47,578 bases of DNA from a virus: the IMG/VR virus record IMGVR_UViG_3300023179_000170, positions 1-47,578 of that record; one strand, 5' to 3'. The position numbers and the translations under genes were made by a program. The notes beneath the pieces are model-generated. The model searched no databases and was not told the origin of the DNA. It was given only the letters and a program-made list of their open reading frames with translations. Below, one piece after another: positions 5,076 through 37,341 of the stretch; the stretch's first letter is position 1; the number at the start of each line of letters is the position of its first letter.

Positions 5076-7087
5076 TGTCGGTGCTGCACGAACTGCCTTG
5101 CCGGCCAGACCCCGACGCCATGCTCGACATGACGACGGCGCTGTTCGCCAATGCGACAGCGGGCAAGGTGGAGCTTGCATGGACCAGTCCGCGCGAGCCG
5201 CACAACATCACCGGCGCACGCCTGTTTGCCGTGCAGGACATCGGCGCTCTGGTCGAACACGCGACGCGCCTCAATGTCACGCCGAACCGCAACGTCTATG
5301 TGTCCGCCGGACTGCGCAAGGAAACCGCCGCCTCGGATCGGCGCTGCGGCCTCTCCGACGTTCTCGCCGTCGCCGCGCTCAAGGCTGACTGCGACGCCCC
5401 CGGCTGCGTCGAAACCGCGCTGCAAATCTCGGAGGCCATCGGCATTGAGCCGACCTACGCCATGTTCACGGGCAAGCACCCGCATTTGCGCGGCTCGCTC
5501 TGGTGGCTCCTGGATGTTCCGTCCGAAGACTTCTCCCGCTGCGTCGCCATCGAACGCGCGCTGCAAGCAAAGTTCGGTTCCGATCCTGCGGTCTGCGAGC
5601 CCGCTCGGGTCATGCGCCTTGCCGGTTCCGTCGCCTGGCCCCTGAAGCAGGGGCGCGTGCTGGAAATGACTGGCCCCTTGCAGGCGCCGGTGCGGGCCAA
5701 GCCCTACACCCTTGATGAACTTGAATCCGCGCTTCGCGGCGCCGGCGCGATGCCCAAGCCGGCCGCCACCGCCACGATCCTTGACTTCAGCGCCGCCAAG
5801 CCAACTCTCGATCTTGACGGCCTGATCGAAAAGGCCCGCGAGCCCAGCCGCTGGCACGACGCCGCGCGCGACGCCGTCGCCCATCTTGTCGGCCGCGGCA
5901 CGCCCCCGGACGTCGTTCTTGATGTTCTCACCACGCCGCTCCAGCAGCCCGGCTTCTCCTGGATGCAGACCCGCAAGGAGCTGCAGGTCATGCTGTCCGG
6001 CGCACTGGCGAAGGGGATGGGGCGGGAGGCAAAACCGCAGGAGGCGGAGGAGGCAAAGGAGGCGCCAAGGCTGGCGTCTTCGCCCTTCGTCACCATCGAC
6101 GACATGCTGGCGAAGCCGCCGCCGGACTGGCTGGTCAGAGGCTATCTCATTGACGTCGGCGTCTCTGTCCTGTTTGGACCGCCCGGCAGCTTCAAGTCCT
6201 TCATCGCCCTCGACCTCGCTCTCTCCGTGGCCCACGGCCTCGACTGGCGTGGGGTCCCCGTCCGTGAGGCCCGCAAGACGCTCTACATCTGCGCTGAAGG
6301 CCAGTACGGTTTTGGGACCCGCGGCCTTGTCTGGCGCGAACACCGGGGCAAGGGAGCCGTCTGCGCGGGCTTCTGGATGCTGCCTGCGCCCGTCAATTTT
6401 CTTGTCGCCGACAATGTCGATCTCCTCGCCAAGCACATCGGCGAGTTCGGCGTAGATGCCCGCTTCATCGTCATCGACACCCTCGCCAAGAATTTTGGCG
6501 GCGGCGACGAGAACAGCACCCAGGACATGAACAAGTTCATTGCCGGTGTGGAAAGGTTGAACGCCGCCCTCAAGGCGCACGTTCTCGTCGTCCACCACAC
6601 AGGCAAGGACGTCAGCAAGGCCGAGCGGGGCTCTTCAGCCCTCCGCGGCGGCGTTGACGCGGCATTCCACCTGATCCGGGACGAGACGTCGGACCGCGTC
6701 ACCGTGCGATGCCTGAAGCAGAAGGACGGCCCCGAACCAGACGACCTCGCACTCCTGTGTCCGGTCGTCGAAGCGGTCCATCCGATTACCGGGGAGGTCG
6801 TCACGTCACGCCTTCCAACCCTGGATGAGCAGCCGATCGTCTCGCGATCTTCGGCCCGCCTCACCCGCAAGCAGCGCGCCGTTCTGGCGACGCTCGACAT
6901 TGGATCCGGGTCCCTTGCGACTCTCGCCGCACGCACCGGAACCGACAAAAGCAACCTTCGCCGCACCTTAAATGAACTGATTGCAATGCGCTTCGTTCGC
7001 CTCACGGATTCGGGGGTCTACGAGCTTGTGGTCATTTCTGAAACCGTTGGCGCTCATGGAGAAAGAGATGAAAATGACTACGATTGA
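5075..7087 (+). CDS. Primase-helicase fusion (AEP-like primase plus RepA-like AAA helicase)
   Basis: A 670-aa replication protein. Residues about 40-200 look like an archaeo-eukaryotic-type primase: KADCDAPG (Asp105, Asp107), then KHPHLRGSLWWLLD and ARVMRLAGSVAWPLK, in the order seen in phage prim-pol domains. Residues about 335-560 are a RecA-fold helicase of the RepA/RSF1010 (AAA_25) type: Walker A GPPGSFKS (368-375), Walker B FIVIDT (Asp468), and HVLVVHHTGKD with the motif-3-like His. The C-terminal ~60 residues form a winged helix (TGTDKSNLRRTLNELIAM). It would prime and unwind for a host polymerase. The iteron-like cluster starts inside its last codons. Confidence 0.85.
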   Translation: MSVLHELPCRPDPDAMLDMTTALFANATAGKVELAWTSPREPHNITGARLFAVQDIGALVEHATRLNVTPNRNVYVSAGLRKETAASDRRCGLSDVLAVAALKADCDAPGCVETALQISEAIGIEPTYAMFTGKHPHLRGSLWWLLDVPSEDFSRCVAIERALQAKFGSDPAVCEPARVMRLAGSVAWPLKQGRVLEMTGPLQAPVRAKPYTLDELESALRGAGAMPKPAATATILDFSAAKPTLDLDGLIEKAREPSRWHDAARDAVAHLVGRGTPPDVVLDVLTTPLQQPGFSWMQTRKELQVMLSGALAKGMGREAKPQEAEEAKEAPRLASSPFVTIDDMLAKPPPDWLVRGYLIDVGVSVLFGPPGSFKSFIALDLALSVAHGLDWRGVPVREARKTLYICAEGQYGFGTRGLVWREHRGKGAVCAGFWMLPAPVNFLVADNVDLLAKHIGEFGVDARFIVIDTLAKNFGGGDENSTQDMNKFIAGVERLNAALKAHVLVVHHTGKDVSKAERGSSALRGGVDAAFHLIRDETSDRVTVRCLKQKDGPEPDDLALLCPVVEAVHPITGEVVTSRLPTLDEQPIVSRSSARLTRKQRAVLATLDIGSGSLATLAARTGTDKSNLRRTLNELIAMRFVRLTDSGVYELVVISETVGAHGERDENDYD

Positions 7088-7197
7088 CCACAATGACCAC
7101 GAAAATGACCACGCGAGGCGTTCCAGCGTGGTCATTCGTGGTCATCATCCTACGGATGACCACACCACGCGCCTTGACCACGGCCAGAGCGGACCAC
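7028..7197. repeat. Iteron-like TGACCAC repeat cluster, candidate replication origin
   Basis: Eight copies of the octamer (A/T)TGACCAC, plus one 7-base variant. Forward copies: 7084-7091, 7093-7100, 7105-7112, 7156-7163, 7174-7181 and GGACCAC at 7191-7197. Inverted copies: 7028-7035, 7128-7135 and 7138-7145. They cover the end of the primase-helicase gene and the first ~40 codons of the next gene, where they force a His/Asp-rich peptide. Such clusters mark initiator-binding iterons in phage and plasmid origins; the function here is inferred. Confidence 0.6.
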
Positions 7198-7556
7198 AAT
7201 CCAATTTTGACCGGGCCACTGACGAGACGTTGGCGGCCGTGAAGCGGATCGAGGCCGAGATCGAGAAGTTGGAAGTCGAACGGAAGCGGCTGCGCGCCGA
7301 ACTGGTCGCGGCGGTGTCGGCGACCGAAGAGCGAAAGATTGTTCGACCCGGAGGGACGATCACGCTCGCCGCCGGGAAGGCCACGCTCAAGGTCGATGAC
7401 GCGGCGAAGCTGCCGAAGGAGCTGACCCGTGTCGTGGTCGAGCCCGACAAGGACGCGATCATCGACCTGATTGAATCCGGCCGCCCCGTCGCTGGCTGTT
7501 CGCTGGCTCGCGCCGCGCCGCATGTCGTCATCCGCTGGGCGAAGGGAGCTGCGTGA
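7068..7556 (+). CDS. Gp157-like phage protein
   Basis: A 162-aa protein from ATG 7068, chosen because GGAG lies six bases upstream; ATG 7056 and 7074 are alternatives. Residues 1-50 are unusual, His/Asp-rich and encoded by the TGACCAC repeats. Residues about 55-90 form a coiled coil (RIEAEIEKLEVERKRLRAEL). The C-terminal part (GKATLKVDD, LPKELTRVVVEPDKDAIIDL, IESGRPVAG) matches the Siphovirus Gp157 family in order and key residues. Gp157 genes sit beside phage recombination genes; the molecular role is not settled. Confidence 0.7.
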   Translation: MKMTTIDHNDHENDHARRSSVVIRGHHPTDDHTTRLDHGQSGPQSNFDRATDETLAAVKRIEAEIEKLEVERKRLRAELVAAVSATEERKIVRPGGTITLAAGKATLKVDDAAKLPKELTRVVVEPDKDAIIDLIESGRPVAGCSLARAAPHVVIRWAKGAA

Positions 7557-22956: not shown

Positions 22957-24449
22957 TGGCCCGCCTCCCGGGACCGGAGGATGTCCAGCGCACGCCGCTG
23001 GCGGTGACGCGCCGCATCGTGGAGGCGCCGGTCGATCAGAGCGGCGGGCAGATGGTGCGTGTTGCCGACGCCGCCAGCGAACTGCTGGGACGGGTCCGGG
23101 ACGCGCAGATCGAGGCGGAGGTGCGCGCCGCGGACTCGCGCTATGCGCTGGATCTCGACCGCGCCCGGCGCGAGCTGGAGGCCGACAACGACTACACGAC
23201 CTATGAGCAGCGCTTTCAGCAGAAGGCGCAGGAGCTGCGCAATACCTACGCGGAGCGCCTGTCATCGCCGGCGCATCGCCGGTTGTGGACGCAGCGCGCC
23301 GACGCGCAGGCGGCGCAGGGCACGGTGCAGGTCCGCGATCTCGCGCGCCGCAAGAGCATTGAAGGTGCGGTGTCAGGCGTCGTCCAGTTGGGGGCCGCGG
23401 CGCAGGAGATCATCGACGATGACGGCGCGCCGGAGAGCCTGCAGGTCAGCCAGCTTCAAAGCTACGCGCATATGGTCCGCTCCAACGTTTCACGTGGAAT
23501 CATCCCCGCCGACGACGGCGAGCGCATGGTCGCCACCATGGAGCAATACTACCGGACGAGGGCGGAGCAGCGCTCCCTTGTCGCCGGGGCGCAGCGTGCG
23601 GCTGATGCGGTGTTTGCGGACCCGCGGCTGGTCACGCTGGACGACAAACTGGGCTGGGTGCGCCAGAACGTGCCGGAGGGAAAGGCGCGGGCGGCGGCCG
23701 AGGATGAGGTCGCGCAGCGGTTCCAGCGGCAGCGTGTGGCGCGGGAAGAGAGCCAGGAGCAGGATCGCATCGCCTTCATGCGGGCCGAGAACGGCGACGG
23801 GACGCTGGACGGCGCGACGCGGGCGCGGATCGAACAGGAGCAGCCGGACTTCATCCAGCAGCGGCGCGAGTATCGCCGCTCGCTCTGGCGCCAGGGCGTG
23901 GCGGACGTGGAGACCGCGCGGCGCGAGGCGCAGCTTCAGTCGCAATCGGCGACGGACGGGCTGATCGCCGACGCGCTCAACGACCCCGCCAAGTTGCGCA
24001 GGCTCATGGAGGCGACGCCGGAGCAGTTGCAGCGTATCACGGCGCGGCTGGAGCCGGATGACGCCGTTCGGCTCGGGCAGTTCCGGGCAAGGGCGCTTGG
24101 CCGCGGCGGCGGCGACGACGCGCAGGCGCAATTGGTCGAGAAGGTGTTTTCCGACCTCTATAGCCGGGCGGAGCCGCAGGCTGTGCTGATGCTCGACGGC
24201 GAGTTCGGCGGAACGAAGGGCAAGGGTGAGGTCAACAAGGCCCAGTTGCGGCGCTATCTTCTTGGCAATGCGCGGGAGTTCGTGACGCGCTATGGCCGGG
24301 CGCCAAGCGAGCAGGAACTGACGACCATCGTCAATCGCGGGTTTGAGCAGCAGCGCACGCGCAACGAGTACGGTCAGTCCTTCCAGTACCGCTTCGGTCG
24401 CCCGCCGCCGTTGCCGCTCACCGCGGAAGAGCAGAAGCCGCCGCGATGA
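22956..24449 (+). CDS. Internal virion core protein (T7 gp15-like)
   Basis: A 497-aa highly helical, charged protein with no membrane segment. Long heptad-like stretches (DLDRARRELEADNDYTTYEQ, QSYAHMVRSNVSRGIIPADD) and the position between the gp14-like protein and a transglycosylase-bearing ejection protein match T7 gp15, a part of the inner core that forms the periplasmic ejection tube. Both ends overlap neighbours by TGATG/ATGA. Confidence 0.75.
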   Translation: MARLPGPEDVQRTPLAVTRRIVEAPVDQSGGQMVRVADAASELLGRVRDAQIEAEVRAADSRYALDLDRARRELEADNDYTTYEQRFQQKAQELRNTYAERLSSPAHRRLWTQRADAQAAQGTVQVRDLARRKSIEGAVSGVVQLGAAAQEIIDDDGAPESLQVSQLQSYAHMVRSNVSRGIIPADDGERMVATMEQYYRTRAEQRSLVAGAQRAADAVFADPRLVTLDDKLGWVRQNVPEGKARAAAEDEVAQRFQRQRVAREESQEQDRIAFMRAENGDGTLDGATRARIEQEQPDFIQQRREYRRSLWRQGVADVETARREAQLQSQSATDGLIADALNDPAKLRRLMEATPEQLQRITARLEPDDAVRLGQFRARALGRGGGDDAQAQLVEKVFSDLYSRAEPQAVLMLDGEFGGTKGKGEVNKAQLRRYLLGNAREFVTRYGRAPSEQELTTIVNRGFEQQRTRNEYGQSFQYRFGRPPPLPLTAEEQKPPR

Positions 24450-27400
24450 CGGAGCCCGTCACCAAGGACGATCTCTGGGGCGAGCTGGGCGCGTCGCCGT
24501 CCGACAAGGAGCGCGACGACCGCACGCTCGACCAGCAGGCGCGGGACAATTTCTGGCGCTCGCTGGATGAGGACGCGGACGCCCGCGCCCGGATGGCGCG
24601 CAATGCGCAGGCGCTCGGGACCGCGCCGGTGCTGGGCAAGGAGGCCGAAACCCGGCTGCAGCGGCTCGCCGACGCCAAGACGGCGCAGGAGACGATCAAC
24701 GCCAACAAGGGGCTGCAGGGGTGGTTCTCCAACCTGCACCGGGCGACGATCTCGCACGACGACGTCGAGGGGCTGGCGGGGATTGAGAAGGCCGCTGGGT
24801 TCCTGACGTTGGATGATCTGCGGCGGGGCTGGAACACGCTGACAAGGCGGCCGGACGCCGTGAACACTGCCGTGCGCGCCAACATGGGCAACGCCGGGGT
24901 GGGGCCGGACGCCGGGCGGGGTGCGGCGGCGCGCGTCGGGGCGATTGGCCGCCAGGTCAACAATTCGTGGACGGCGTCGCAGCTCGACGCTAAGGCGGCC
25001 CGGCTGGAGACTCGCAGGGCGGCGGCCGTGGTGGGCGCCGGAGACTGGACCGAGGCCGACCAGCGGGAGCTGGACGATGCGCGAACGGAAGCAGCCCTCC
25101 GAAGACTGGGTGGTCTTCAAAAGGTTCCTGATACTCTTGTTGGCGTTCTCAATTCTGGCGCCTCTGGTATCGTTTCTGGTGGCGTGGGGATGGTACGTGG
25201 CCCGGTAGACGCCGGGACCAACGTCGCCGAAAACGCCATCGCGGCGTCCAATCCGTTCTGGAAGTACGGGCGCTTTGCGCCTTACGCCGCCATGTCGGGG
25301 ATGCCGAAGGCGGAGGCCGTCGCTCCGCGCACAAGCCCCGTCATGGCTGGCCTGATGAAAATGGCCGGCGCGACGCCGGACCAATCGCTCGCGGCCAGCG
25401 CGCTTCTGTCGGCCGCGTCCGCTGACCCGCGTGTCGGGTTCCTTCGGGGGTCTGCGGAGTTTACGGCGGAGCAGGAAGCGGGCGGTGCTTTTCAGCAATA
25501 CCGGCAAGTCCAGACGCTCGACGGCCGCCCGCTCAATGAAAAGTACGCCGCGGAAGCGGCGATGCTCGTCGGCGCCATCAATGCTGGGCTTGAGTTTGGC
25601 ACCGGCGCGCTGATCGGCGGGGCATGGGGCTCGACGCGGGAACTGCGCGACAAGTTGCTGGCGCAGGGCGGACAGGCGGCGGTGCGGCGTTTTGCGCTGG
25701 GCGAGATCGTCAAGAAATACGGCTTGCGCGTGCTCGCCACCGGCGCCGGCGAAGGTACGGAAGAGGTGGTGCAGGCCGCCAGTACGCAGACATTTGAAGA
25801 GTTCGCCAAACTGAAAGACGGCGGCGAGTTCGCCCCGACGGACTGGAGCGCCTTCGCCGCATCGGCGCTGGAGCAGGGCGCCTATGGCTTTGCGGGCGGC
25901 CTCATGTTCGGCCTGCCGGTCATGGGCGTCGAACTGCGCGCCGACCTCCAGGCCCGCGACGCAGCGCTCGCCACCCGCGACCGGGTGCTGGCGCTGGCGG
26001 ATGCGGCGAAGAAGGCCAGGCTCACGACCCGCGACCCCGACGCCGCGGCGGCATTCATTGACGACCACGCCGCGCCGGGTGCGCCGCCGATCCTGATCGA
26101 CGTGCAGGGCATGATGACGCTGGCCCAGGAGGCGCGCCAGTCGCCGGAGGAGTTCGCGCAGTCGCTGGGCATCGCGCCAGAGCGCTACCGCGCCGCGGTG
26201 GAAGGCGACGGCGTCATCGAGGTGTCTGCCGGTCACTACGCGACGCGCATCGCGCTGACGGCCCACGGGCCGAAGCTCGCAGACCACATCAGCATGGACC
26301 GCAGCCAGCCGACCCCGGCGCAGGCGGAAGCCGCGGTGAAGGAGGCGGAAGCGCAGGTCGCCGCGGTGCAGAAGGCGGCGGAGGAAGAAAGCCGCACGCT
26401 GGTCGAGAAGGCCAAGGCCCACCCGGACTATGAGGTCTTGCGCAAGGAGGTCGAGGGCATCCTGACCGCTGGCGGCGCGGGCGACCGCGGCGCCGTGAAG
26501 ATGCAGGCCGAACTGATCGCCGCGAACATGGCGGCGAACGCCGACAAGCTGGACCCGGAGACCTATCCGATCGGGCGCGGCGACATGGTGAGCGTCGGCG
26601 GCTCTGCGGAGCGCCTGTCGGAGACGCCCGCGCCGGAGCCGCGCCGGGTGCGCGAGATCATCACCACCGCCGACGGCGAGCGCCAGGCGCTGCTTGAAGG
26701 CTCCTCCGTGCCGGTCCCGGTGGAGCAGTTGACGCGCGAGGGGCCGGTGTCGCCCATCGCCGTCTTCAGCCGCTTCAATCTGCGGGTGGAGTCCTACAAG
26801 GACCGCGAGGCTGCGGCGACGGCGGAGGCCGATTTCTTCGCGCGCATGGGCGCCGCTACGCCCGCAAGCGGCGTGACGATGAACCAGTTTGCGGGGGTCC
26901 GCGCCAAGACTGCAAACCGGGGCGCGCTGGCGGATGCGCAACAGCGGATCGCCAGCGGCGAGGACGCGGAAGTCGTGCGCCGGGAAACCGGGTGGTTTCA
27001 GGGCGACGACGGGTCGTGGAAGTTCGAGATCGACGACAGCAAGGCGCGCTTCACCAAGATGCCGAAGAAGCCGGGCTTTCACGGCGACGAGCTTGGTTTT
27101 GAAGGGCCGCTGGGCCGAATCCTGGACCACCCGGACCTGTTCCGCGCCTATCCGTCTCTCTACAAATTCCCCGTGCGGATCGAGATCACGCACGAACCAA
27201 TGATGTCGCACTTCAGTTCAACTGGGCTGAACGTCGAAGGCGAGACGCAGGAGGAGGCCATGGCCATCCTCATGCACGAAATCCAGCACTACATTCAGGA
27301 CGTCGAGAAATGGGAAGGCGGCGCGAACCCTGCCGCGGCGGAGCCGATGCGGGAGAACTGGTACAACGCCATCGTCAAGCTGATGGAAGACCTGCAGGCC

Positions 27401-29032
27401 GAGGGCCGCGGCCACAACATGATCCCGGAACTGGACTGGCTCCTGACGAAGATCGCGGAGTTTAATCCGGGCGACAACAACAGCTTCTTCGGCGGCCCCA
27501 GTGGATTTGCCGTGCGCGGTTACGAAACCACCATCGGCGAGACGGAGGCGCGGAATACGCAGGCTCGCCTGCGGATGACCAAGAAGCAGCGCAACGAGAC
27601 GCCGCCGGACGTCACGCGCGACGTGCCCCGCGGCGCTACCGTCACGCGCGAGTTCCCGTTCATCATGCGCGAAGGCGCGGAACAGGAACTGGAAGACGCG
27701 GTCAAGAAAGCATCCGCGGCCATTGGCTTGCCCTGGACAAAGAATGCGCAGGATCGCGGACTCACCGGCGAGCGCATTCTTGGAATGATTACGCAGGGCG
27801 GATTTGGGGGCGCGCGCGGTTACAACACGTTTGTGGCGCGGGATGCTGCGCAAAAACTAGCGCGTGGTACGCATGACTGGGGCGGACCGCTGGACGATTG
27901 GGATATCAAGCATCTGGAAAAGGACCTTCAAGATTCCACGCAGATCCTTCAAGTCCTCGACGCCGTAGAAGCGACCGGTGTCCAGAACCGCCTGTTTGCA
28001 GATGCATCGGCGTTCGGGCTTGTGTCGGACCTGGAAGTCGAGGGCTATCGCCGGCAGGTGGACGAGAAGGGCCGTCCGCTGAAGCGCGCCGACGACGGCA
28101 TGGAGCCGGCGTCGTATCGCATCGCCACATCCCCCGCCCCCACCCCACTCCAGATCGCCGAAGCCCTGCGCGAGGCGGCGCGGTGCGCGGCGGAGATGAG
28201 CGCGGCGGCTGCCGCGGGCGGCACGGCGGCGTTCATGGCGGGCAATGCGATTGCGGCGACGGCGGCGCTGCCGGCGGGGATCGCGGTGTCGGCAGCGACG
28301 GCGGCTCAGAACGAGGCCGAAGCGCAGCGGAGGGCGGAAGAGGAGCGGATTGCACGCGCGCGGGCGGAAGCCGAAGCCAGGGCGGCGGAAGAGAAGCGCA
28401 AGGCCACGCTCAAGCGCGACAATTTCGCGGGCTATCTGTCGGAACTGCCGTCCATCGATGCGATGTACCCGGAGGTCGCGAAAGAACTTGGCGTGCCGGA
28501 GCAGTACCTGCGCGATCTTGTCCAGCATGAGAGCGGCGGCGACTTTGCGGCGGATGCGCCGACGTCCAGTGCGTTCGGCGCCGGGCAGTTCATCAATGAT
28601 GCATGGAAGACCGAAACGGCGCTGATGGATGGTCGCTACGGGCCGGAGCCGTGGGCCGGGCAGGAGCAGCGCGACATGGATATGGAGCGGGCGCAGCCGA
28701 ACTGGATGCTGCTCGCCATTGCACAGCGGGCGCGCCGCGATGCGGTCGGGCTGCGCAACGCCATCGGGCGCACGCCGACGCAGGGCGAGGTCTATCTGGC
28801 GCACTTCCTCGGGCCGAAAGCGGCGGTGGATCTGATCGAGGCCGCCGACCGCGGGGTCAAGAACGCGGCGGCGCATTTCAAGGACGCCGCGAAGGCCAAC
28901 CGGAGCGTGTTCTACGAGGGCGGCGATCTGCGGCGCCCGCGCACGGCGGCGGGCGTGCGGGACAAGCAGACGGAAGGGTTCTCTTCCGAGAAATTCACCA
29001 TCGGCGCAACGCGCTTTGAGGATACGCCCTGA
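24446..29032 (+). CDS. Giant ejection protein with zincin motif and lytic transglycosylase (gp16-like)
   Basis: A 1528-aa protein in the T7 gp16 position. In order: an N-terminal helical region with a Gly-rich hydrophobic segment (about 215-260); a helical middle; a module starting MNQFAGVRAKTA (812) and containing ETGWFQGDDGSWKFEI; a zinc peptidase motif HEIQH (944-948); an Ala-rich membrane-like segment (about 1255-1290); a charged coiled coil; and a C-terminal SLT-type lytic transglycosylase with Glu1362 in QHESGG, then AFGAGQFI and YLAHFLG (1450-1456). In T7 the transglycosylase is N-terminal. It would be injected and open the cell wall. A 43-aa gene is nested in another frame at 25077-25208. 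Confidence 0.85.
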   Translation: MTEPVTKDDLWGELGASPSDKERDDRTLDQQARDNFWRSLDEDADARARMARNAQALGTAPVLGKEAETRLQRLADAKTAQETINANKGLQGWFSNLHRATISHDDVEGLAGIEKAAGFLTLDDLRRGWNTLTRRPDAVNTAVRANMGNAGVGPDAGRGAAARVGAIGRQVNNSWTASQLDAKAARLETRRAAAVVGAGDWTEADQRELDDARTEAALRRLGGLQKVPDTLVGVLNSGASGIVSGGVGMVRGPVDAGTNVAENAIAASNPFWKYGRFAPYAAMSGMPKAEAVAPRTSPVMAGLMKMAGATPDQSLAASALLSAASADPRVGFLRGSAEFTAEQEAGGAFQQYRQVQTLDGRPLNEKYAAEAAMLVGAINAGLEFGTGALIGGAWGSTRELRDKLLAQGGQAAVRRFALGEIVKKYGLRVLATGAGEGTEEVVQAASTQTFEEFAKLKDGGEFAPTDWSAFAASALEQGAYGFAGGLMFGLPVMGVELRADLQARDAALATRDRVLALADAAKKARLTTRDPDAAAAFIDDHAAPGAPPILIDVQGMMTLAQEARQSPEEFAQSLGIAPERYRAAVEGDGVIEVSAGHYATRIALTAHGPKLADHISMDRSQPTPAQAEAAVKEAEAQVAAVQKAAEEESRTLVEKAKAHPDYEVLRKEVEGILTAGGAGDRGAVKMQAELIAANMAANADKLDPETYPIGRGDMVSVGGSAERLSETPAPEPRRVREIITTADGERQALLEGSSVPVPVEQLTREGPVSPIAVFSRFNLRVESYKDREAAATAEADFFARMGAATPASGVTMNQFAGVRAKTANRGALADAQQRIASGEDAEVVRRETGWFQGDDGSWKFEIDDSKARFTKMPKKPGFHGDELGFEGPLGRILDHPDLFRAYPSLYKFPVRIEITHEPMMSHFSSTGLNVEGETQEEAMAILMHEIQHYIQDVEKWEGGANPAAAEPMRENWYNAIVKLMEDLQAEGRGHNMIPELDWLLTKIAEFNPGDNNSFFGGPSGFAVRGYETTIGETEARNTQARLRMTKKQRNETPPDVTRDVPRGATVTREFPFIMREGAEQELEDAVKKASAAIGLPWTKNAQDRGLTGERILGMITQGGFGGARGYNTFVARDAAQKLARGTHDWGGPLDDWDIKHLEKDLQDSTQILQVLDAVEATGVQNRLFADASAFGLVSDLEVEGYRRQVDEKGRPLKRADDGMEPASYRIATSPAPTPLQIAEALREAARCAAEMSAAAAAGGTAAFMAGNAIAATAALPAGIAVSAATAAQNEAEAQRRAEEERIARARAEAEARAAEEKRKATLKRDNFAGYLSELPSIDAMYPEVAKELGVPEQYLRDLVQHESGGDFAADAPTSSAFGAGQFINDAWKTETALMDGRYGPEPWAGQEQRDMDMERAQPNWMLLAIAQRARRDAVGLRNAIGRTPTQGEVYLAHFLGPKAAVDLIEAADRGVKNAAAHFKDAAKANRSVFYEGGDLRRPRTAAGVRDKQTEGFSSEKFTIGATRFEDTP
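25077..25208 (+). CDS. Nested 43-aa membrane protein in an alternative frame
   Basis: Inside the ejection gene, a second frame starts at ATG 25077 with GGGAG seven bases upstream. It encodes a charged N-terminus (MRERKQPSEDWVVFKR), a strong transmembrane helix (FLILLLAFSILAPLVSFLVA) and WGWYVAR. In this stretch the ejection-protein frame uses mostly T-ending codons, unlike the rest of the gene, while the nested frame keeps G/C at third positions. That codon pattern suggests the nested frame is the constrained one. It could be a holin- or antiholin-like peptide; function is unproven. Confidence 0.6.
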   Translation: MRERKQPSEDWVVFKRFLILLLAFSILAPLVSFLVAWGWYVAR

Positions 29033-32000
29033 TGCACCCGGAATGCCGCGCCCGCGTGTCGAAGGTTCTCGGCCGGGAGGTCACCGACGACATGGACGCG
29101 GCGCTGACGCAGCGCATCGAGGCGTCAATGCGCACGCTGTCGCGGCAGGACGTGGCGGCGTGGCGCGCGCTGCCGCAGACGGAGAAGTGGCGCCGGGCGG
29201 CGGACCATGCTGCGGCGCAGGTGGAGGCCGCGGCGGTGGGGCAGACCTTCAACCAGGATGGCGCCGTCTCTCGCGCACAGGCCGCAGGCTATCAGGGCGC
29301 CGACACCGGCGAGGCGGTGGAGTGGCTGCGCGCTAAGGCCAAGGGTCTCGACATGAGCACGGAAGCGCGCATGGCGAGGGCGAGAGAGCAGGGCTGGGAT
29401 ACGAGCAAGCCGCAGTATCACGGCACCCCATCCAGATCTTCGGAACACAACAACAAATATGTTCGCGCAGAAGGCGACGATAGGTACATCCCGCTATTTG
29501 AGGCTTTTGATTCAACAAAGGGAGCAGCCTCAGATAGCGGATGGTTAGGAAGTGGCGGCGTCTATGTTACAGAAGATCCTGAATATGCGTTCGAGTTCGG
29601 AGATAGAATTCTCCCGCTGTTCATACGGACATCCAAACCATTTGATGTACTGGACTCTAACACCACCAGTTACGAGTCATTGTTCTTGCTGCGAAAGCAA
29701 GTGCAAGAACTCGGGATGCAATTGCCAGAAAAGTGGCGTCTTGATCTAACGGAGCCTCCCGCAAAGAAGACATTCAAGTCGTATGACGGTAGGCAAATAA
29801 CCACGCACTACACAGTGCGAGAGGCGCCGAACTCGGAAGACCCGAATACAAGATGGGCCGTGGTCTCTGGGTCAAGGCCCTATGCAGAAAGTCGTTCTGG
29901 AATTGTTGAGGCGAGCGGGCCGACGCGTGAACAAGCAATTGGGCTATTCAACGACAATCAACGCAGCGGTGGAAAGCCTTTCGGCTTCTCCAGCCGCTTG
30001 ATCGGAGACTACGGACCGAAGCGTTTTGTGGAAGACCTTAAGGCACGCGGATTTGATTCCGTGCGCGCAGTGGATTCTCAGAATGGCAGGGTTTCAGAAA
30101 CACTTGTCTTCGACCCCCGCAACATCCGCTCCATCCACGCCGCCTTCGATCCTGACTTCAAGGACAGCGCGAACCTGCTCGCCCAGGGCGAACCCGCCGT
30201 CGGCGTCCGCGGCGACTTCACGATCTGGCGCGCTGACGCCCGGTGGCGCGTCAATGAGCTGGAGCGCCAGACGCGCATCCGGCTCTACGCCGCGCGCGAC
30301 ATGTCCACGATGCTCCACGAAACGGGGCACCTGTTCCTTGAGGTCATGCGCACGCTGGCGCCGTCGAGCCCGCAGATCGCGGCGCAACTGGAGGACGTGC
30401 GCCAGTGGGCGGGCCTGAAGGACGGCGAAGACTTTGAGGAGCGCCACCACGAACTGTTCGCGCGGACGTTTGAGGCCTACCTGATGGAGGGGAAGTCGCC
30501 GTCGCTGCGCCTCAGGAAGGCGTTCGAGGCGTTCAAGGCGTGGCTGACGGCGATCTATCGCGCCGTCACCGGCCGGCTCGTGACGCGCGACGGGATCGAC
30601 TATGGCGCGACGCGACTCTCACCGGAAATCCGCGCCGTGTTCGACCGGATGGTGGCGACGGACGCCGAGATCGCACAGGCCCGCGCGCTGCAGGGCATGG
30701 AGCCGCTGACGCAGGCCCAACTCGGGCTGACCGATGAGGCTTATGCGAAATATCTGGCGTCCTTCGAGCGGGCGCGCGTCGCGGCCGAGAACGACCTGCG
30801 CGCCGAAACGATCCGCCAGGTCATGCGCAAAAAGCGGGCGGAATGGAAGCGCCGCGAGGCGCAGCATCGCCGCGTCGTGACGCTGAACGTGAACGGCCGG
30901 CGCGAGTACCGGGCCGAAGACCTGTTCACCGATGGCCGCTGGCGCGATGGCGTCGGCGTCGGGCAGGCGCTGCCGCCGGACGAGGCGATGCAGGACCGGG
31001 ACGAGGCGGAGGCTGCGGGGGCGCAGGCGGAGCGGGAGATCATCGACGGCCGCAGCTACGACCAGTTCGCCGGACCGCGCGCCCGCACGGCGGACCTGTC
31101 GAAACTGAAGCAGGCGCAGGATCGCGTCGCGGCAGGGGAAGACCCCGAACAGGTGCGCAAGGACACCGGCTGGTTCAAGGACAGCGCGGGCCAGTGGCAG
31201 TTCGAGATCAGCACGGCGGATGTGCGCGTGCGGCTGACCCCGGAAGCGGCTGCCGCGGCCAATGCGTCGCGACGGCTAAACGCGATGGAGGTCCGGCACG
31301 CGCTGATGGTCGGCGACATGGATGCCTTCATGGACCCGCTGTCGCCACTGGCGCAGCACTATGCGCTGCTACCCGACGTACTGGATGCCAAGGATCTGAT
31401 CGAGGCGTACCCAGACCTTGCCAGCCTCCGGGTCGTGTTCGTGAACATGCCCGCCGGGTTCAACGGGGCCGCCCTGCCAGAGGACTACCAGACGGGGCGT
31501 CCCGGTTTCATCCTCCTGGATAGCCATCTGTCCATCGAGAAGGCGAGATCGACCCTCATTCACGAGCTTCAGCATGTGATCCAGGCCTCCGAGGAGTGGA
31601 TGGTCGGCGGAATGCCGGAGCAGGCGTCCGCCTATATCGACCTCGCCGATCAGGACACCGTCGATGCGGTGCTGTTGCGGCTGAAGGCGGCGGGGCTGCC
31701 GGCGACATCGAACAACGTATATCGCGTCTTCACCGGGGAGGATCAAGCCTTCGAGTCCGAGGCGCGCCGCAACATGACGCCGGAAGAACTGCAGGCGACG
31801 CCGCCCGTTAACGCCTATGCGCCGTCCCTGCCGACGCGGCCGAACTCCCGCGCCGGGCTGGAGGACTTCAAGGACCGGGTGCTGAAACGGTTCGGGATCG
31901 TGCTGTCCGTGGGGCCGTCGCTGTCGCGGGAGCCCCTGTGGTTCTCCGCGCTGGAGCGCGCGGTGGAGGGCTCGCAGACCAAGAAGGCGAGCGCGGCGCA

Positions 32001-35000
32001 ATGGTGGGCGACGCTCTCCAAGACGCCGGGGGTCAAGAAGGAAGAACTGGAGTGGACCGGCCTCAAGGACTGGCTGGATGGGCAGGAGGCGGAGCAGGCG
32101 CGCCCCGGCCGCAACAGTTCGGACAAGGGCGTCAGCCGCGACGACATTCTTGCTTTCGTCCGTGCCAACGGCGTGCGCGTCGAGGAGACGGTGCTGGGGG
32201 ATATGTCTCTCCAGAATCGCGAGCAATTGGATGAACTGCAACGCGAGCTATTGCCGCTCGTGGAGGAGCAAGATCGTCTTCGCGCTGAACTGGATACATT
32301 GGCAAATTTCGCCCGCAATGCCGACGATCAGAGGCTGAAGACGGCCGCCGCTGAAAGGCAACAACAAAATCGGGCGCGTTTGCGGGTAATTGGACCACAA
32401 ATTCTTGATCTGATGGAGCGCCAGGATTTCCTGCGTGGAGACAACGTCCGCACCAAATGGTCCAGCTACACCCTCCCCGGCGGCGAGAACTATCGCGAGC
32501 TGCTGCTGAGGTTGCCGGGTGGCACTCGCGACGATGTTCGCCCGTCGCCAGAAGTTGTGGCGAATTATCAGGAGGAGTGGGACGGGCTTGTCGTTCAAGT
32601 TCGCGAAGCCCGCGCAAAAGGGCAGCGCGCTTACGAAACGGAAGTCCAAGATAAAATGGATGAACTTCACGCTCGTATGGTGCGTGAAACTATTGAGCAG
32701 AACCCAAGGCTGGTTCGCGACCCCTACACCTCCTCCCACTGGGACGAGCCGAACGTCCTCGCGCACGTCCGTTTTAAGGAGCGCACCGACGCTGACGGCG
32801 CGCGCGTGCTGGCGATCGAGGAGGTCCAGAGCGACTGGCACCAGGCCGGGCGGGAGAAGGGGTATAAGGCCGGCGACGCGGAGCAGCGACTTCGCGATGC
32901 TGAAGAAGCGCAACGCGAAGCTTACAGGGCGATGGACGTCGCCAGTAACGCAGGGCGAAAGTATCTTGCGGAGGTTGGCGACATAGATTTTCAGGATCGG
33001 CAGGCTGCGGCTTCGCATGGGGCTGTGCTTGGCTGGCTCAGGCTTCGGAAGGGCGATGCTCAAGCAGCCGAGCTGGCGGCGCGGGTCTATGAAGCGATGG
33101 GCGCTGCGGATAGGGCCGCAGAGGAGACGCGCGGCGCGCGGGCGGCGGCCACCAAAGGCGTCCCCGACGCTCCGTTCAAGAACAACGCCTGGGCCGCGCT
33201 CGCGCTGAAGCGCATGGTTCGCTGGGCGGCCGAGAACGGTTTTGACAAGATCGCGTGGATTCCGGGGCAGGTGGCAGTGGAGCGGTTCGGAATCGAGAAG
33301 CAGATCGATAGCCTTGAACTGTGGAAGGATCGCGACGGCAGGGAAAAGCTCTACGCCTATCGCGGCGACCGCATGGTGCAAGAAATCACGATCACGGAGC
33401 AGCAGCCGCTGGAAGCGGTGATTGGCAAGGAACTGGCGGAGAAGTTGCGGAACGGACAGCGCAACACAACGGCCGACAGAGCTGAGGGGGGTGAGCATCG
33501 CTCGCTTTCCGGCGTTGACCTCAAGATCGGCGGCGACGGGATGCGCGCGTTCTACGACCGCATCCTGCCGAACATCGCCAACGACCTCGGGAAGAAGTAC
33601 GGGGCGAAGGTGGGGGAGGCGAAAATCGGCATGGGAGCGCCGAGCAAAGCCGACTTGGACGCACGATGGGCTCGCATCGCAGCGGGCGAAGATGGCGTGC
33701 CGCACCCCGGCGAAGCGCAACAAAAAATGCACTCCCTCCCCATCACGCCCGCGCTCAAGGAGGCCGCGCTGGGCGGCTTCCCAATGTTCCAGAACGACCC
33801 CTCCATTACGCCGGACCCGAAGCCCGACTGGTGGAAGAAGATGAAGCTGGACCGGCGCCAGATCGAGGAGACCTACGGGCCGGAGGTCGCGGCGAAGCTG
33901 GAGGGCATGTTCGCCACGGCGGAAGAGGAGGCTGCGACCGCCGCCGCAGAGATCGAGAAAGCCAACGCCGACCTGAAGCAGGCCAAGCGCCTCTGGGTCT
34001 GGATCAGGGAGAAGGGCGGGATTCGCGCCGATGACGCCGGGGCCATTGTGGATGGCGACAAGCGCTTTCCCATGCTGGTCCGCAAGAACGGGATGGGCCT
34101 CGACGACCTCGCCCGCGCCGCCGTGGAAGAGGGCTTTGCGCCGATGCGCAAGGACGCAGACGGCTACATCATCCCGCTTGATCCTGAAGAATTGCTGGAC
34201 ATGCTGCGCCGGGATGTCGGCGGCGATCCGCAGTATCGCGTCACGAACGACGAGGCCCGCGAAACTCTGGCGCGCTATCAGGCGTCCGGGATCGACACGA
34301 GCCTCACAGGCAAGGCGCTGCGTGAACAGGTTCGGGAGACGATGCTGGAACAGGCACGGCTTGGCGTCGATCCCGACGAGATCGCGCCGCTCTTGGGCTT
34401 CTCCTCCGGCGACGAGATGATCCAGGCGCTGGCGGCGCGGCGCCCGCGCGCCGACGTCATCAAGGAAGAGACCGACGCCGCGATGCGCGACGAGTTCGGC
34501 GACATGATGGAGGACGGCTCCCTCATGGACGAGGCCAAGCTGCGCGCACACGCCGTCGCACAGGAAAAGGCGCTGGAGATCGAACTGGAAGCCATCCGGC
34601 GCGCGACCGGCGGGCGGGCAAGGCCCATGGCCGCCGCGGCGAAGCAGGCGGCGGAGCGCCAGTTGAAGGCCATGACGGTGGGCCAGGTGCTGAACCCGGA
34701 CCAGTTCCTTGCCGCCGAACGCCGCTTCGGGATGCAGGCGCAGAAGGCGCTGGCGCGGGGCGACACGGCTGCGGCGCTGGAGGCCAAGCACCGCCAGCTT
34801 GTGTCGTGGCATCTCTATCGCGGCGCCCGCGCCGCCGCCGACAAGGTGCAGAAAGCGGTCAAGCGCTGGTCGTCGCTGTCGGACAGCACGACGGTGCGCA
34901 ACGGCATCGCAGAGCCGGAGCGCGACATGATCGACATGATCCTCGAGCGGATCGACCTGAAGCCGCGCTCGCGGGCCGAAGAACGCCGCAGTGCGGCGGA

Positions 35001-37341
35001 ATGGTTCATGTCCGTCGAGGCGCGCGGACTCTCGGGGATGCGGGGCGTCGATCCCGAAACGCTGGCGCAGATCGGGCCGCGGCCGATGCGCTCGCTGACG
35101 GTTGCGGAGTTCGATGAGGTCGCGGAAGTGATCCGCAACATCGCGTTCCTTGGGCGCAATGTGGGGAAGATGCTGGCCGCGGAGCGCGCGCGCGAGGTCG
35201 AAGAGGTCAAGCGGGGCCTGCTGGATCGCGCTGAAGCGGAATGGAAGGGCGCGCTCGATCCGAAGTCCCGACCGTCGGATTCGCTGCTGGCGCGGGCGCG
35301 GCGCAACGTCGATGCGTTCCACGGCGCCAACCTCAAGATCGACTATCTCATGCGCCTGATGGACGGGCTGAAGGACAATGGCCCTTGGGCGCGGATCTTC
35401 TCGCATCCGGCGCAGGAGGCCGCCGACCGTTTGCATCAGCGCCAGATTGCAACCATGCAGCAGTTCGCCGCGCTTCTGGAGCGCCAAGGCGTCACCCGCA
35501 AGGAACTCGGGCAGATGCTGACGCGCAACATCTGGATTCCCGAAATTGGGGAAAACCTGACGCGCCACCAGATCGTCTCCGTCGCGCTCAACATGGGCAA
35601 TGAGTACAACCGCGAGGGCGTCAAGGCGGGCGAGGGCTGGGACGATGCGCAGCTTGCGGCTGTGCTCGCGAAGATGCGCAAGCAGGACTGGGATCTTGTG
35701 CAGGCGCTGTGGGACCATATCGGCCAGTGGAAGGAGGAATCCTTCGCGCTGGATGAAAAGACCCGCGGCGTGCGCCCGCGGGAGGTCATCGCTGCACCGG
35801 TGCAGACGCCGTTCGGGACCTATCGCGGCGGGTACTGGCCGGTCGCGTTCGATCCGCTGCGCTCCGATGCGGCCGCGAAGCGCGAGGCGCGGGACGCGGT
35901 CAATGCGGAGCTCGGCGGCGGCTATCGTACACCCGCCACCGCGCGGGGTCGCCTCGAGGCGCGGCAGGGCACCGGCGGCCAACCGTTCCGGCTTGACTGG
36001 CTCGGTGTGCTGGACAAGCACACCCGCGAGACGCTGACCGACCTGACGCACCGCGAACTGGTCATCGACCTGCGTCGCCTCAAGGCCGACAGCCGCATCC
36101 GGCTTGCGATCTCCAACGTGGCCGGCGATGGCGCGGTGCGCGCGCTGGACGACTGGGTCAACCGCCTGACGCGCAAGGCGCCGGTGACGGCCTATGGCGA
36201 TCTCGGCGGCATTGCCGCCTATCTGCGCCGCACGGGCACGCAGTCGCAAATGGGCTTTAAGCTGTCGGTGGGTCTGCTCAACGCGCTGGGCGCGCTGCAG
36301 GCGATTCCGCGCAATGGGTTCGCGGCGCAGTTGAAGCAGTCTGGCATCTCGTTCGGCCGCGACTTCCCGCTGATGGTGGCGTCTCAGATCGGATCGCTGT
36401 TCGGCGGCGACGGGACGATGCCCAAGCGCGTCGCCTTCGTGCGCGAGAAGTCCGCCATGATGAATGCGCGGATGGGGCAGTTTGACCGGGAAATCGCCAA
36501 CGACACTGGCGTCCTGGAGGTCAAGGCGACGGTGCTTGGCCGGCGCGATTACTCGCTCATGTCCAAGGACTGGGAGGATGCGGCGCACTATTTCACCGGG
36601 CTCATGGACGCCGCGGTCTCCGTGCCGACATGGCTTGCGGCCTATGAAAATGCCATGGCCGGGAAGGTCGGCGGCATCGAACTGGCTGATGAGGCGGCGG
36701 CGATCCGGCACGCCGATCAGGTGGTGCGCACAACGCAGGGCTCCGGCGCCACGCAGGACCTGTCGGCGTTGCTCGCGACGAATAACGAGTTCCAGCGCCT
36801 CTTCACCATGTTCATGAGCTGGGCGAACGGGTTCTACAACCAGTTGTTCGCGGAACAATTTCCCGGCGTGATGCGCGGCAAGATCAGTCCCGTGCGGTTT
36901 GCGGTCAACATGATCGCGATCTGGCTGCTGCCGGCGTTCCTGTCGGCGTGGTTCTATGGGCTGGGCGACGATGGTGAGGACGAGGACAAGAAGGCGCGGC
37001 AGATCGTGACGGAAGTGCTGCTCTATCCGGCGCAGTCGATCCCGTTCGTGCGCGACGCCCTGTCCTCGGTGTTCGAAGACTACCGCCCGCAGACGCCGCT
37101 GGCGACCGCGCTGGATCGCGCCGGGCGCCTCTCGGGCGCAGTTGAGGGCGGCGACGGCGAGAAGATCGCCAAGCAAAGCTACATGCTGTTCGGCTCGCTC
37201 TTTGGCGCGCCGACGCAGTTCTGGGTCACCGGGGACTATCTCTATGACGTGACGGTGGGCGACGAGGATCTGCAGGACTGGACCGACCCGGAAACCGCGG
37301 GCGACGCCTTCAGCCAGGCGTTCGTGAGAGACACGCGTTAG
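29032..37341 (+). CDS. Giant polyvalent protein: ADP-ribosyltransferase-like, zincins and C-terminal membrane region
   Basis: A 2769-aa protein, translationally coupled to the ejection gene (TGATG). It resembles the large polyvalent proteins that phages deliver with their DNA. In order: residues about 127-385, an ART-PolyVal-like domain (YHGTPS at 129; SGGVYVTEDPEYAFEFGD near 173; FDPRNIRSIHAAFDPDFKD at 360); a zincin HETGH (429-433) with a downstream ELFARTFEAYLMEG; a FAGPRARTA/DTGWFKD module (about 676-728); a second zincin HELQH (844-848); WTGLKDWL; a conserved EEVQSDWH block (1264-1270); long helical regions; NMGNEYNREG (about 2187) and GGYWPV; and a membrane segment (about 2624-2645). 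It probably blocks host defences and processes proteins on entry. Domain names are from motif recognition only. Confidence 0.75.
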   Translation: MHPECRARVSKVLGREVTDDMDAALTQRIEASMRTLSRQDVAAWRALPQTEKWRRAADHAAAQVEAAAVGQTFNQDGAVSRAQAAGYQGADTGEAVEWLRAKAKGLDMSTEARMARAREQGWDTSKPQYHGTPSRSSEHNNKYVRAEGDDRYIPLFEAFDSTKGAASDSGWLGSGGVYVTEDPEYAFEFGDRILPLFIRTSKPFDVLDSNTTSYESLFLLRKQVQELGMQLPEKWRLDLTEPPAKKTFKSYDGRQITTHYTVREAPNSEDPNTRWAVVSGSRPYAESRSGIVEASGPTREQAIGLFNDNQRSGGKPFGFSSRLIGDYGPKRFVEDLKARGFDSVRAVDSQNGRVSETLVFDPRNIRSIHAAFDPDFKDSANLLAQGEPAVGVRGDFTIWRADARWRVNELERQTRIRLYAARDMSTMLHETGHLFLEVMRTLAPSSPQIAAQLEDVRQWAGLKDGEDFEERHHELFARTFEAYLMEGKSPSLRLRKAFEAFKAWLTAIYRAVTGRLVTRDGIDYGATRLSPEIRAVFDRMVATDAEIAQARALQGMEPLTQAQLGLTDEAYAKYLASFERARVAAENDLRAETIRQVMRKKRAEWKRREAQHRRVVTLNVNGRREYRAEDLFTDGRWRDGVGVGQALPPDEAMQDRDEAEAAGAQAEREIIDGRSYDQFAGPRARTADLSKLKQAQDRVAAGEDPEQVRKDTGWFKDSAGQWQFEISTADVRVRLTPEAAAAANASRRLNAMEVRHALMVGDMDAFMDPLSPLAQHYALLPDVLDAKDLIEAYPDLASLRVVFVNMPAGFNGAALPEDYQTGRPGFILLDSHLSIEKARSTLIHELQHVIQASEEWMVGGMPEQASAYIDLADQDTVDAVLLRLKAAGLPATSNNVYRVFTGEDQAFESEARRNMTPEELQATPPVNAYAPSLPTRPNSRAGLEDFKDRVLKRFGIVLSVGPSLSREPLWFSALERAVEGSQTKKASAAQWWATLSKTPGVKKEELEWTGLKDWLDGQEAEQARPGRNSSDKGVSRDDILAFVRANGVRVEETVLGDMSLQNREQLDELQRELLPLVEEQDRLRAELDTLANFARNADDQRLKTAAAERQQQNRARLRVIGPQILDLMERQDFLRGDNVRTKWSSYTLPGGENYRELLLRLPGGTRDDVRPSPEVVANYQEEWDGLVVQVREARAKGQRAYETEVQDKMDELHARMVRETIEQNPRLVRDPYTSSHWDEPNVLAHVRFKERTDADGARVLAIEEVQSDWHQAGREKGYKAGDAEQRLRDAEEAQREAYRAMDVASNAGRKYLAEVGDIDFQDRQAAASHGAVLGWLRLRKGDAQAAELAARVYEAMGAADRAAEETRGARAAATKGVPDAPFKNNAWAALALKRMVRWAAENGFDKIAWIPGQVAVERFGIEKQIDSLELWKDRDGREKLYAYRGDRMVQEITITEQQPLEAVIGKELAEKLRNGQRNTTADRAEGGEHRSLSGVDLKIGGDGMRAFYDRILPNIANDLGKKYGAKVGEAKIGMGAPSKADLDARWARIAAGEDGVPHPGEAQQKMHSLPITPALKEAALGGFPMFQNDPSITPDPKPDWWKKMKLDRRQIEETYGPEVAAKLEGMFATAEEEAATAAAEIEKANADLKQAKRLWVWIREKGGIRADDAGAIVDGDKRFPMLVRKNGMGLDDLARAAVEEGFAPMRKDADGYIIPLDPEELLDMLRRDVGGDPQYRVTNDEARETLARYQASGIDTSLTGKALREQVRETMLEQARLGVDPDEIAPLLGFSSGDEMIQALAARRPRADVIKEETDAAMRDEFGDMMEDGSLMDEAKLRAHAVAQEKALEIELEAIRRATGGRARPMAAAAKQAAERQLKAMTVGQVLNPDQFLAAERRFGMQAQKALARGDTAAALEAKHRQLVSWHLYRGARAAADKVQKAVKRWSSLSDSTTVRNGIAEPERDMIDMILERIDLKPRSRAEERRSAAEWFMSVEARGLSGMRGVDPETLAQIGPRPMRSLTVAEFDEVAEVIRNIAFLGRNVGKMLAAERAREVEEVKRGLLDRAEAEWKGALDPKSRPSDSLLARARRNVDAFHGANLKIDYLMRLMDGLKDNGPWARIFSHPAQEAADRLHQRQIATMQQFAALLERQGVTRKELGQMLTRNIWIPEIGENLTRHQIVSVALNMGNEYNREGVKAGEGWDDAQLAAVLAKMRKQDWDLVQALWDHIGQWKEESFALDEKTRGVRPREVIAAPVQTPFGTYRGGYWPVAFDPLRSDAAAKREARDAVNAELGGGYRTPATARGRLEARQGTGGQPFRLDWLGVLDKHTRETLTDLTHRELVIDLRRLKADSRIRLAISNVAGDGAVRALDDWVNRLTRKAPVTAYGDLGGIAAYLRRTGTQSQMGFKLSVGLLNALGALQAIPRNGFAAQLKQSGISFGRDFPLMVASQIGSLFGGDGTMPKRVAFVREKSAMMNARMGQFDREIANDTGVLEVKATVLGRRDYSLMSKDWEDAAHYFTGLMDAAVSVPTWLAAYENAMAGKVGGIELADEAAAIRHADQVVRTTQGSGATQDLSALLATNNEFQRLFTMFMSWANGFYNQLFAEQFPGVMRGKISPVRFAVNMIAIWLLPAFLSAWFYGLGDDGEDEDKKARQIVTEVLLYPAQSIPFVRDALSSVFEDYRPQTPLATALDRAGRLSGAVEGGDGEKIAKQSYMLFGSLFGAPTQFWVTGDYLYDVTVGDEDLQDWTDPETAGDAFSQAFVRDTR
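29430..30100. other. AT-richer segment encoding the ADP-ribosyltransferase-like domain
   Basis: Base composition drops visibly here (for example 26 G/C in the 60 bases 29641-29700, against roughly two thirds elsewhere). Codons with A or T at the third position become common. The edges match the ART-like domain, so the domain was probably exchanged or acquired as a unit. Confidence 0.65.

Follow-up and report, generated by a model that had tools for sequence, protein, structure and literature searches.

A TGACCAC repeat array at the end of a RepA-type primase-helicase gene as a putative phage replication origin

At the 3' end of the primase-helicase gene P0002, the 47,578-bp stretch of DNA analysed here, an IMG/VR virus record (hereafter the window), carries an array of short repeats extending from position 7028 to 7197. 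These most probably are iterons that P0002 would bind with its C-terminal winged helix, and the array would serve as the replication origin of the phage. The sequence-only reading had already proposed iterons and a candidate origin at this place, and comparison with related sequences supports the idea, whereas GC skew did not: among the window and three circular relatives, a minimum was located near the array in one only, and GC skew, giving no pointer to the array, is not counted as support.

The repeat array and the primase-helicase gene

In the window, there are 12 copies of the heptamer TGACCAC, compared with a mean of 4.3 and a maximum of 9 in dinucleotide shuffles. Eight of these copies fall, as exact heptamers, within 7028-7181, the other four being scattered and as many as chance predicts, and the runner-up 7-mer cluster elsewhere in the window comprises five copies in 250 bp. 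Two further copies with one mismatch each (TGACTAC at 7075 and GGACCAC at 7191) carry the array to 7197 and bring it to ten sites with the consensus ATGACCAC(G/A), occupying both strands. Iterons 2 (7075..7081), 3 (7085..7091), 4 (7094..7100), 5 (7106..7112), 8 (7157..7163), 9 (7175..7181) and 10 (7191..7197) lie on the plus strand, iterons 1 (7028..7034), 6 (7128..7134) and 7 (7138..7144) on the minus strand; apart from iterons 2 and 10, all are exact. The earlier claim of a repeat array in both orientations is borne out by this enrichment, though its description as nine copies of an 8-bp element has to be revised to ten sites with a constant part of 7 bp, the preceding A being found in six sites only. 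Likewise, the array does adjoin the primase-helicase gene but does not begin right after it: iteron 1 lies inside the gene, the array start overlaps the last 20 codons (7028-7087), and the TGA stop (7085-7087) opens iteron 3.

The core of the array (7094..7144) consists of two inward-facing iteron pairs, 7094 and 7106 facing 7128 and 7138, the inner sites being 22 bp apart from start to start, and is able to form a hairpin when single-stranded. With 46% AT, the array is AT-richer than the window (34%), and a stretch at 7040..7110, a possible melting site, reaches up to 62% AT in 50 bp, so that the AT peak is located left of the core and not between the inward pairs. An Rfam search of the window gave no match.

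P0002 (5075..7087, plus strand; 670 aa) is predicted to combine, in one ORF, an AEP primase, a hexameric helicase of the RSF1010 RepA type and a C-terminal winged helix. In the AlphaFold2 model (pLDDT 83), the AEP primase (residues ~13-222) is followed by linker helices (247-312), a RepA-type RecA-fold helicase (~335-585), a winged helix (~598-651) and a disordered tail (655-670), the latter being encoded where the array starts. The helicase part is matched by Pfam AAA_25 (E 3e-34) and, in a PDB profile search (24 relatives), by RSF1010 RepA (1g8y, 1.4e-11), which was also its top fold match with a Z of 23.7. The same profile search revealed PrimPol AEP 6zp9 (1.7e-5), and the RSF1010 RepB' primase 3h20 was among the Foldseek matches (TM-score 0.46 by target length), while the Pfam scan found no Toprim domain, an AEP match being obtained instead. 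VIA-align of the whole model returned helicase-domain matches only and is uninformative on the other domains. The winged helix, our proposed iteron reader, is encoded by 6869..7027 on the plus strand (residues ~599-651); Pfam gave a weak MarR/IclR HTH match at the C-terminus, and the domain searched alone matched MarR-type winged-helix DNA-binding proteins with modest E-values.

On the 5' side of the array, and all in the same direction, follow genes for a RuvC-like resolvase, a Sak4-like protein, a phrog_2300 ORF, a Cas4-like exonuclease and P0002. The window also encodes a terminase, a head-tail adaptor, and major head and tail proteins, and displays two very long ORFs 3' of the tail genes (24446-29032 and 29032-37341, with 1528 and 2769 aa, respectively). 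An ORF of 971 aa at 37477-40392 matches, in PHROG, a protein of the pectin-lyase type and a structural protein of virions; it possibly encodes a depolymerase or tail spike.

Arrays at helicase gene ends in relatives

Megablast unveiled no close DNA relatives among phage records, and blastn yielded a 75-base helicase match only. The closest relatives, L149 and L152, have a helicase that is 44% identical over residues 3 to 652, and L149 shares the same three genes upstream of it. Both carry eight to nine ATGACAAC repeats directly 3' of the helicase stop, in a non-coding stretch without a long open frame, a Gp157 homolog or a His/Asp peptide, meaning that a TGAC-type DNA repeat at the helicase end has been kept and the peptide has not. 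At the helicase end of the loci related via the Cas4-like exonuclease (L136-L142), no array was found.

For a wider survey, 183 usable loci, originating from two collection scans with helicase alignment, one with a single relative, and earlier loci, were reduced to 110 non-redundant ones at 70% identity, and an array was defined as one 7-mer present four or more times between -50 and +250 of the helicase stop. Such arrays were present at 75 of the 110 helicases, with at least five copies at 61 and at least six at 48, while none of 550 shuffles reached four copies. Dense arrays (at least five copies) occurred in 50-54% of the scanned segments overlapping the stop; elsewhere within 3 kb on either side, no offset exceeded 3%. 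In 35 of the 110 relatives, a simple count revealed no array; these may use degenerate or different sites, and the length of the helicase C-terminus (median 109 v 116 aa) fails to account for them. Both orientations were found in 71 of 80 arrays, the commonest iteron spacing was 9-10 bp, about one helical turn, and the array regions were 5-7% AT-richer than their own locus. The repeat words differ among lineages and include CGGGACA, CGTGACA, ACCTACA, CGCAACA, TGCGGAA and GTCGGAA in addition to TGACCAC. One locus (L275) displayed 17 sites of (C)GGTGAC 3' of the helicase, many of them 6-7 bp apart as opposed to the usual 9-11 bp.

The heptamer alone is not diagnostic, since TGACCAC clusters also exist in viral contigs without this helicase. 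Scanning viral contigs for triplets of TGACCAC gave at least 120 loci, and among the matches listed eight have a helicase homolog, none shown adjacent. Four loci (L019, L023, L027 and L127) contain dense one-direction TGACCAC arrays of 8-12 copies, with no helicase homolog in the stretch examined. In the circular records Methylobacterium currus unnamed4, Caenibius p1 and pKp_Goe_795-4, the annotations of which are incomplete, the helicase is the only annotated replication initiator; in M. currus unnamed4, a toprim protein adjoins it. Some survey loci may be satellites and not phages. The 17-kb circular Klebsiella record pKp_Goe_795-4 (L315, CP018459.1), which has the helicase and an array together with genes for capsid, terminases, head-tail adaptor, tape measure and integrase, resembles a small prophage or a satellite that forms capsids more than an ordinary plasmid.

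The repeat word follows the C-terminal domain of the helicase. Using 54 arrays with domains that could be cut out, and after removal of array-encoded residues, we obtained a partial Mantel correlation of 0.38 between word and C-terminal domain given the core (reached in 0 of 2000 permutations), compared with a weak 0.10 between word and core given the C-terminus (61 of 2000), the pairs in this as in the layout and conservation tests not being independent. With the analysis restricted to arrays entirely outside the gene, the respective values were 0.30 (0/2000) for the C-terminus and 0.16 (12/2000) for the core. Locus L216 has a distant core, but its C-terminus resembles those of the sphingomonad group, and it carries the word of this group, TGCGGAAG. 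Both the covariation and L216 are what reading of the repeats by the winged helix would produce.

In part, arrays retain their layout although their words differ. Among 1314 pairs of arrays with unlike words, 20 (1.5%) had at least six sites in register, against 0.23% when gaps and orientations were shuffled; L165 (ACCTACA) and L207 (CGTGACA), for example, have seven sites in register despite their different words. In some lineages, all iterons would thus have changed their word jointly with order, spacing and direction kept, which suggests joint evolution of reader and sites as a single specificity cassette. The core of two inward-facing pairs is present in 25 of 80 arrays, the window included (null mean 4.8, maximum 9). 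In L149, it flanks the palindrome GTGGTAATTACCAC, and core palindromes beat shuffles by more than one pair in 13 of 28 cores. Short palindromes between inward pairs were also seen in L148, L165, L178, L206, L281 and others, often centred on TATA or CTAG, e.g., ACCCTATAGGGT. Among related arrays sharing a word, iterons were 89% and spacers 75% conserved, the iterons being higher in 100 of 107 pairs, a figure to which the alignment itself contributes by favouring repeats.

Other readings of the array

The sequence-only reading had also described a His/Asp-rich N-terminus of a Gp157-like protein as a by-product of the DNA repeat. The peptide is indeed present in the frame of the Gp157-like ORF (7074..7556, plus strand), the N-terminus of which is array-encoded, but its assignment to the protein depends on a gene start that is a candidate only: besides ATG codons at 7056, 7068 and 7074, there is a TTG at 7230 that leaves the whole array outside the gene. 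The Pfam Sipho_Gp157 match of P0001 (E 4.7e-12) covers residues 82-183 only, phage Gp157 homologs align only from residue 60 or 87 on, with residues 1-59 never matched, and no relatives of the Gp157-like protein were found in viral contigs. GC3 is 0.59 in the array-encoded part (7074-7211), compared with 0.82 further along the frame, and 0.29 in the last helicase codons. As judged from the sequences compared, the peptide is a by-product of the DNA repeat, the comparison with relatives that had been proposed as a check showing the DNA repeat to be kept without it. The reverse case, with selection acting on the His/Asp-rich N-terminus and the DNA repeat being secondary, can practically be discounted even though the frame is open and Met starts are present: the iterons stand in both orientations, the site at 7028 is outside every ATG-started version of the gene, and we rejected the peptide as a selected feature on the non-coding repeats of L149 and L152, the fall in GC3 and the Gp157 homologs without this region.

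Binding by the winged helix would also fit a control element or second cis-element, involved in copy number or incompatibility, with replication starting elsewhere. Such a role would share the binding evidence of an origin, i.e., the position lock and the word covariation deduced from sequence, and P4 replication needs both its ori1 and such an element, crr. We nevertheless consider it unlikely, as the window has no second TGACCAC cluster, the four other copies being scattered at chance level, and as the PICI and SaPI arrays at the same position are full origins (PMC6092414, PMC7581432). Recognition of a stem-loop and not of iterons, on the precedent of pRN1 (PMC4234260), with the inward pairs folding into a large hairpin or a cruciform, seems very doubtful: the single strand of 7060-7200 is predicted to fold into a strong hairpin (z -5.2), which makes a structural role possible, but only 25 of 80 arrays have the inward-pair core, and a hairpin of repeats is not general, given that nine of 80 relatives' arrays have a single orientation and many run mostly in one direction. 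The two orientations and the spacing of ~10 bp would suit repressors or ParB-like proteins as well, HTH proteins are encoded nearby, and the winged-helix model resembles plasmid centromere-binding proteins too. That the array represents operators or partition sites of another phage DNA-binding protein is still highly improbable, because it stays with the helicase in widely differing phages and plasmids, its word varies along with the C-terminal domain of that protein, and no sigma-70-like promoter, nor any convincing promoter or terminator, was found at the array.

If the array is an origin of iterons read by P0002, as we prefer, the winged helix would bind the iterons cooperatively, helicase hexamers would load at the inward-facing pairs, the adjacent AT-rich DNA would melt, and the fused primase would lay down the first primers. 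With the sites at the gene's own end, they and their reader would stay linked as a single exchangeable cassette.

Comparison with known replication systems

In lambda, the iterons are located inside gene O, the product of which is not known to be a helicase. The analogy with lambda drawn from the sequence holds insofar as the iterons overlap a replication gene; it fails in that the array lies at the 3' end and beyond, overlapping only the last 20 codons (7028-7087) and not the body of the initiator gene. P4 alpha, whose helicase is SF3/D5-like, resembles P0002 in uniting a primase, a helicase and a C-terminal winged helix (predicted in P0002) in one polypeptide. The P4 winged helix binds short origin repeats, and the covariation of word and C-terminal domain would fit such a role in P0002. 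P4 alpha differs in its Toprim primase (PMC4234260), P0002 having an AEP instead, and P4 has two separate repeat regions compared with one TGACCAC cluster in the window, a record that may be incomplete. ORF904 of pRN1 also joins Prim/pol, helicase and C-terminal winged helix, and pRN1 requires the DNA directly 3' of this gene as an origin, but this is a stem-loop without iterons (PMC4234260) and the helicase belongs to SF3.

With the IncQ plasmid RSF1010 and its oriV, P0002 shares the RepA-type helicase by fold and sequence, with a predicted hexamer, the AEP primase, RepB' being among the fold matches, and iterons read by the initiator, as proposed here. RSF1010 uses three separate polypeptides, RepA, RepB' and RepC (PMC4234260), whereas primase, helicase and winged helix form one chain here, and the iterons of the window, unlike those of RSF1010, are short, bidirectional and situated at the gene's end.

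In the pri-rep-ori segments of SaPI and PICI (SaPIbov1, EcCICFT073), the initiator helicase reads DNA through a C-terminal domain, to which the predicted winged helix of P0002 would correspond. The C-terminus of SaPI Rep recognises iterons that immediately follow the rep gene on its 3' side (PMC7581432), the position at which the window also carries them, and a rep-ori segment of an E. coli PICI maintains a plasmid (PMC6092414). Iteron words differing by lineage and AT-richer array DNA are further common features. The SaPI Rep helicases are of the DUF927 or Primase_Cterm/D5 type (PMC7581432) and P0002 is a RecA-fold RepA-type protein (AAA_25), a fold contrast resting on SaPI Rep, since the E. 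coli PICI Pri-Rep may belong to the P0002 helicase family. Moreover, unlike these satellites, the window belongs to a tailed phage that itself encodes a terminase as well as head and tail proteins. The SaPI/PICI iteron sets flank an AT-rich region; the window has two inward pairs in an AT-richer array, with the AT peak left of the core. We infer that the P0002 array works like a PICI origin, with a helicase fold of the RSF1010 RepA kind.

No description of arrays at RepA-type helicase gene ends in phages was found in the literature accessible without subscription. On balance, we lean towards a widespread class of replicons, hitherto undescribed, in phages and phage-plasmids, having an RSF1010-type helicase (fused to the primase in P0002), an exchangeable C-terminal winged helix and cognate iterons at the gene's own end. 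An arrangement regarded as peculiar to PICIs (PMC6092414) would thereby be extended to a different helicase fold. As a rule, it would predict origin and initiator in many phages, prophages and phage-plasmids, in which the genes concerned carry only annotations such as "AAA family ATPase" or "helicase RepA family protein", and the natural reader-site pairs would provide a data set on how origin specificity shifts when all sites of an array must change together.
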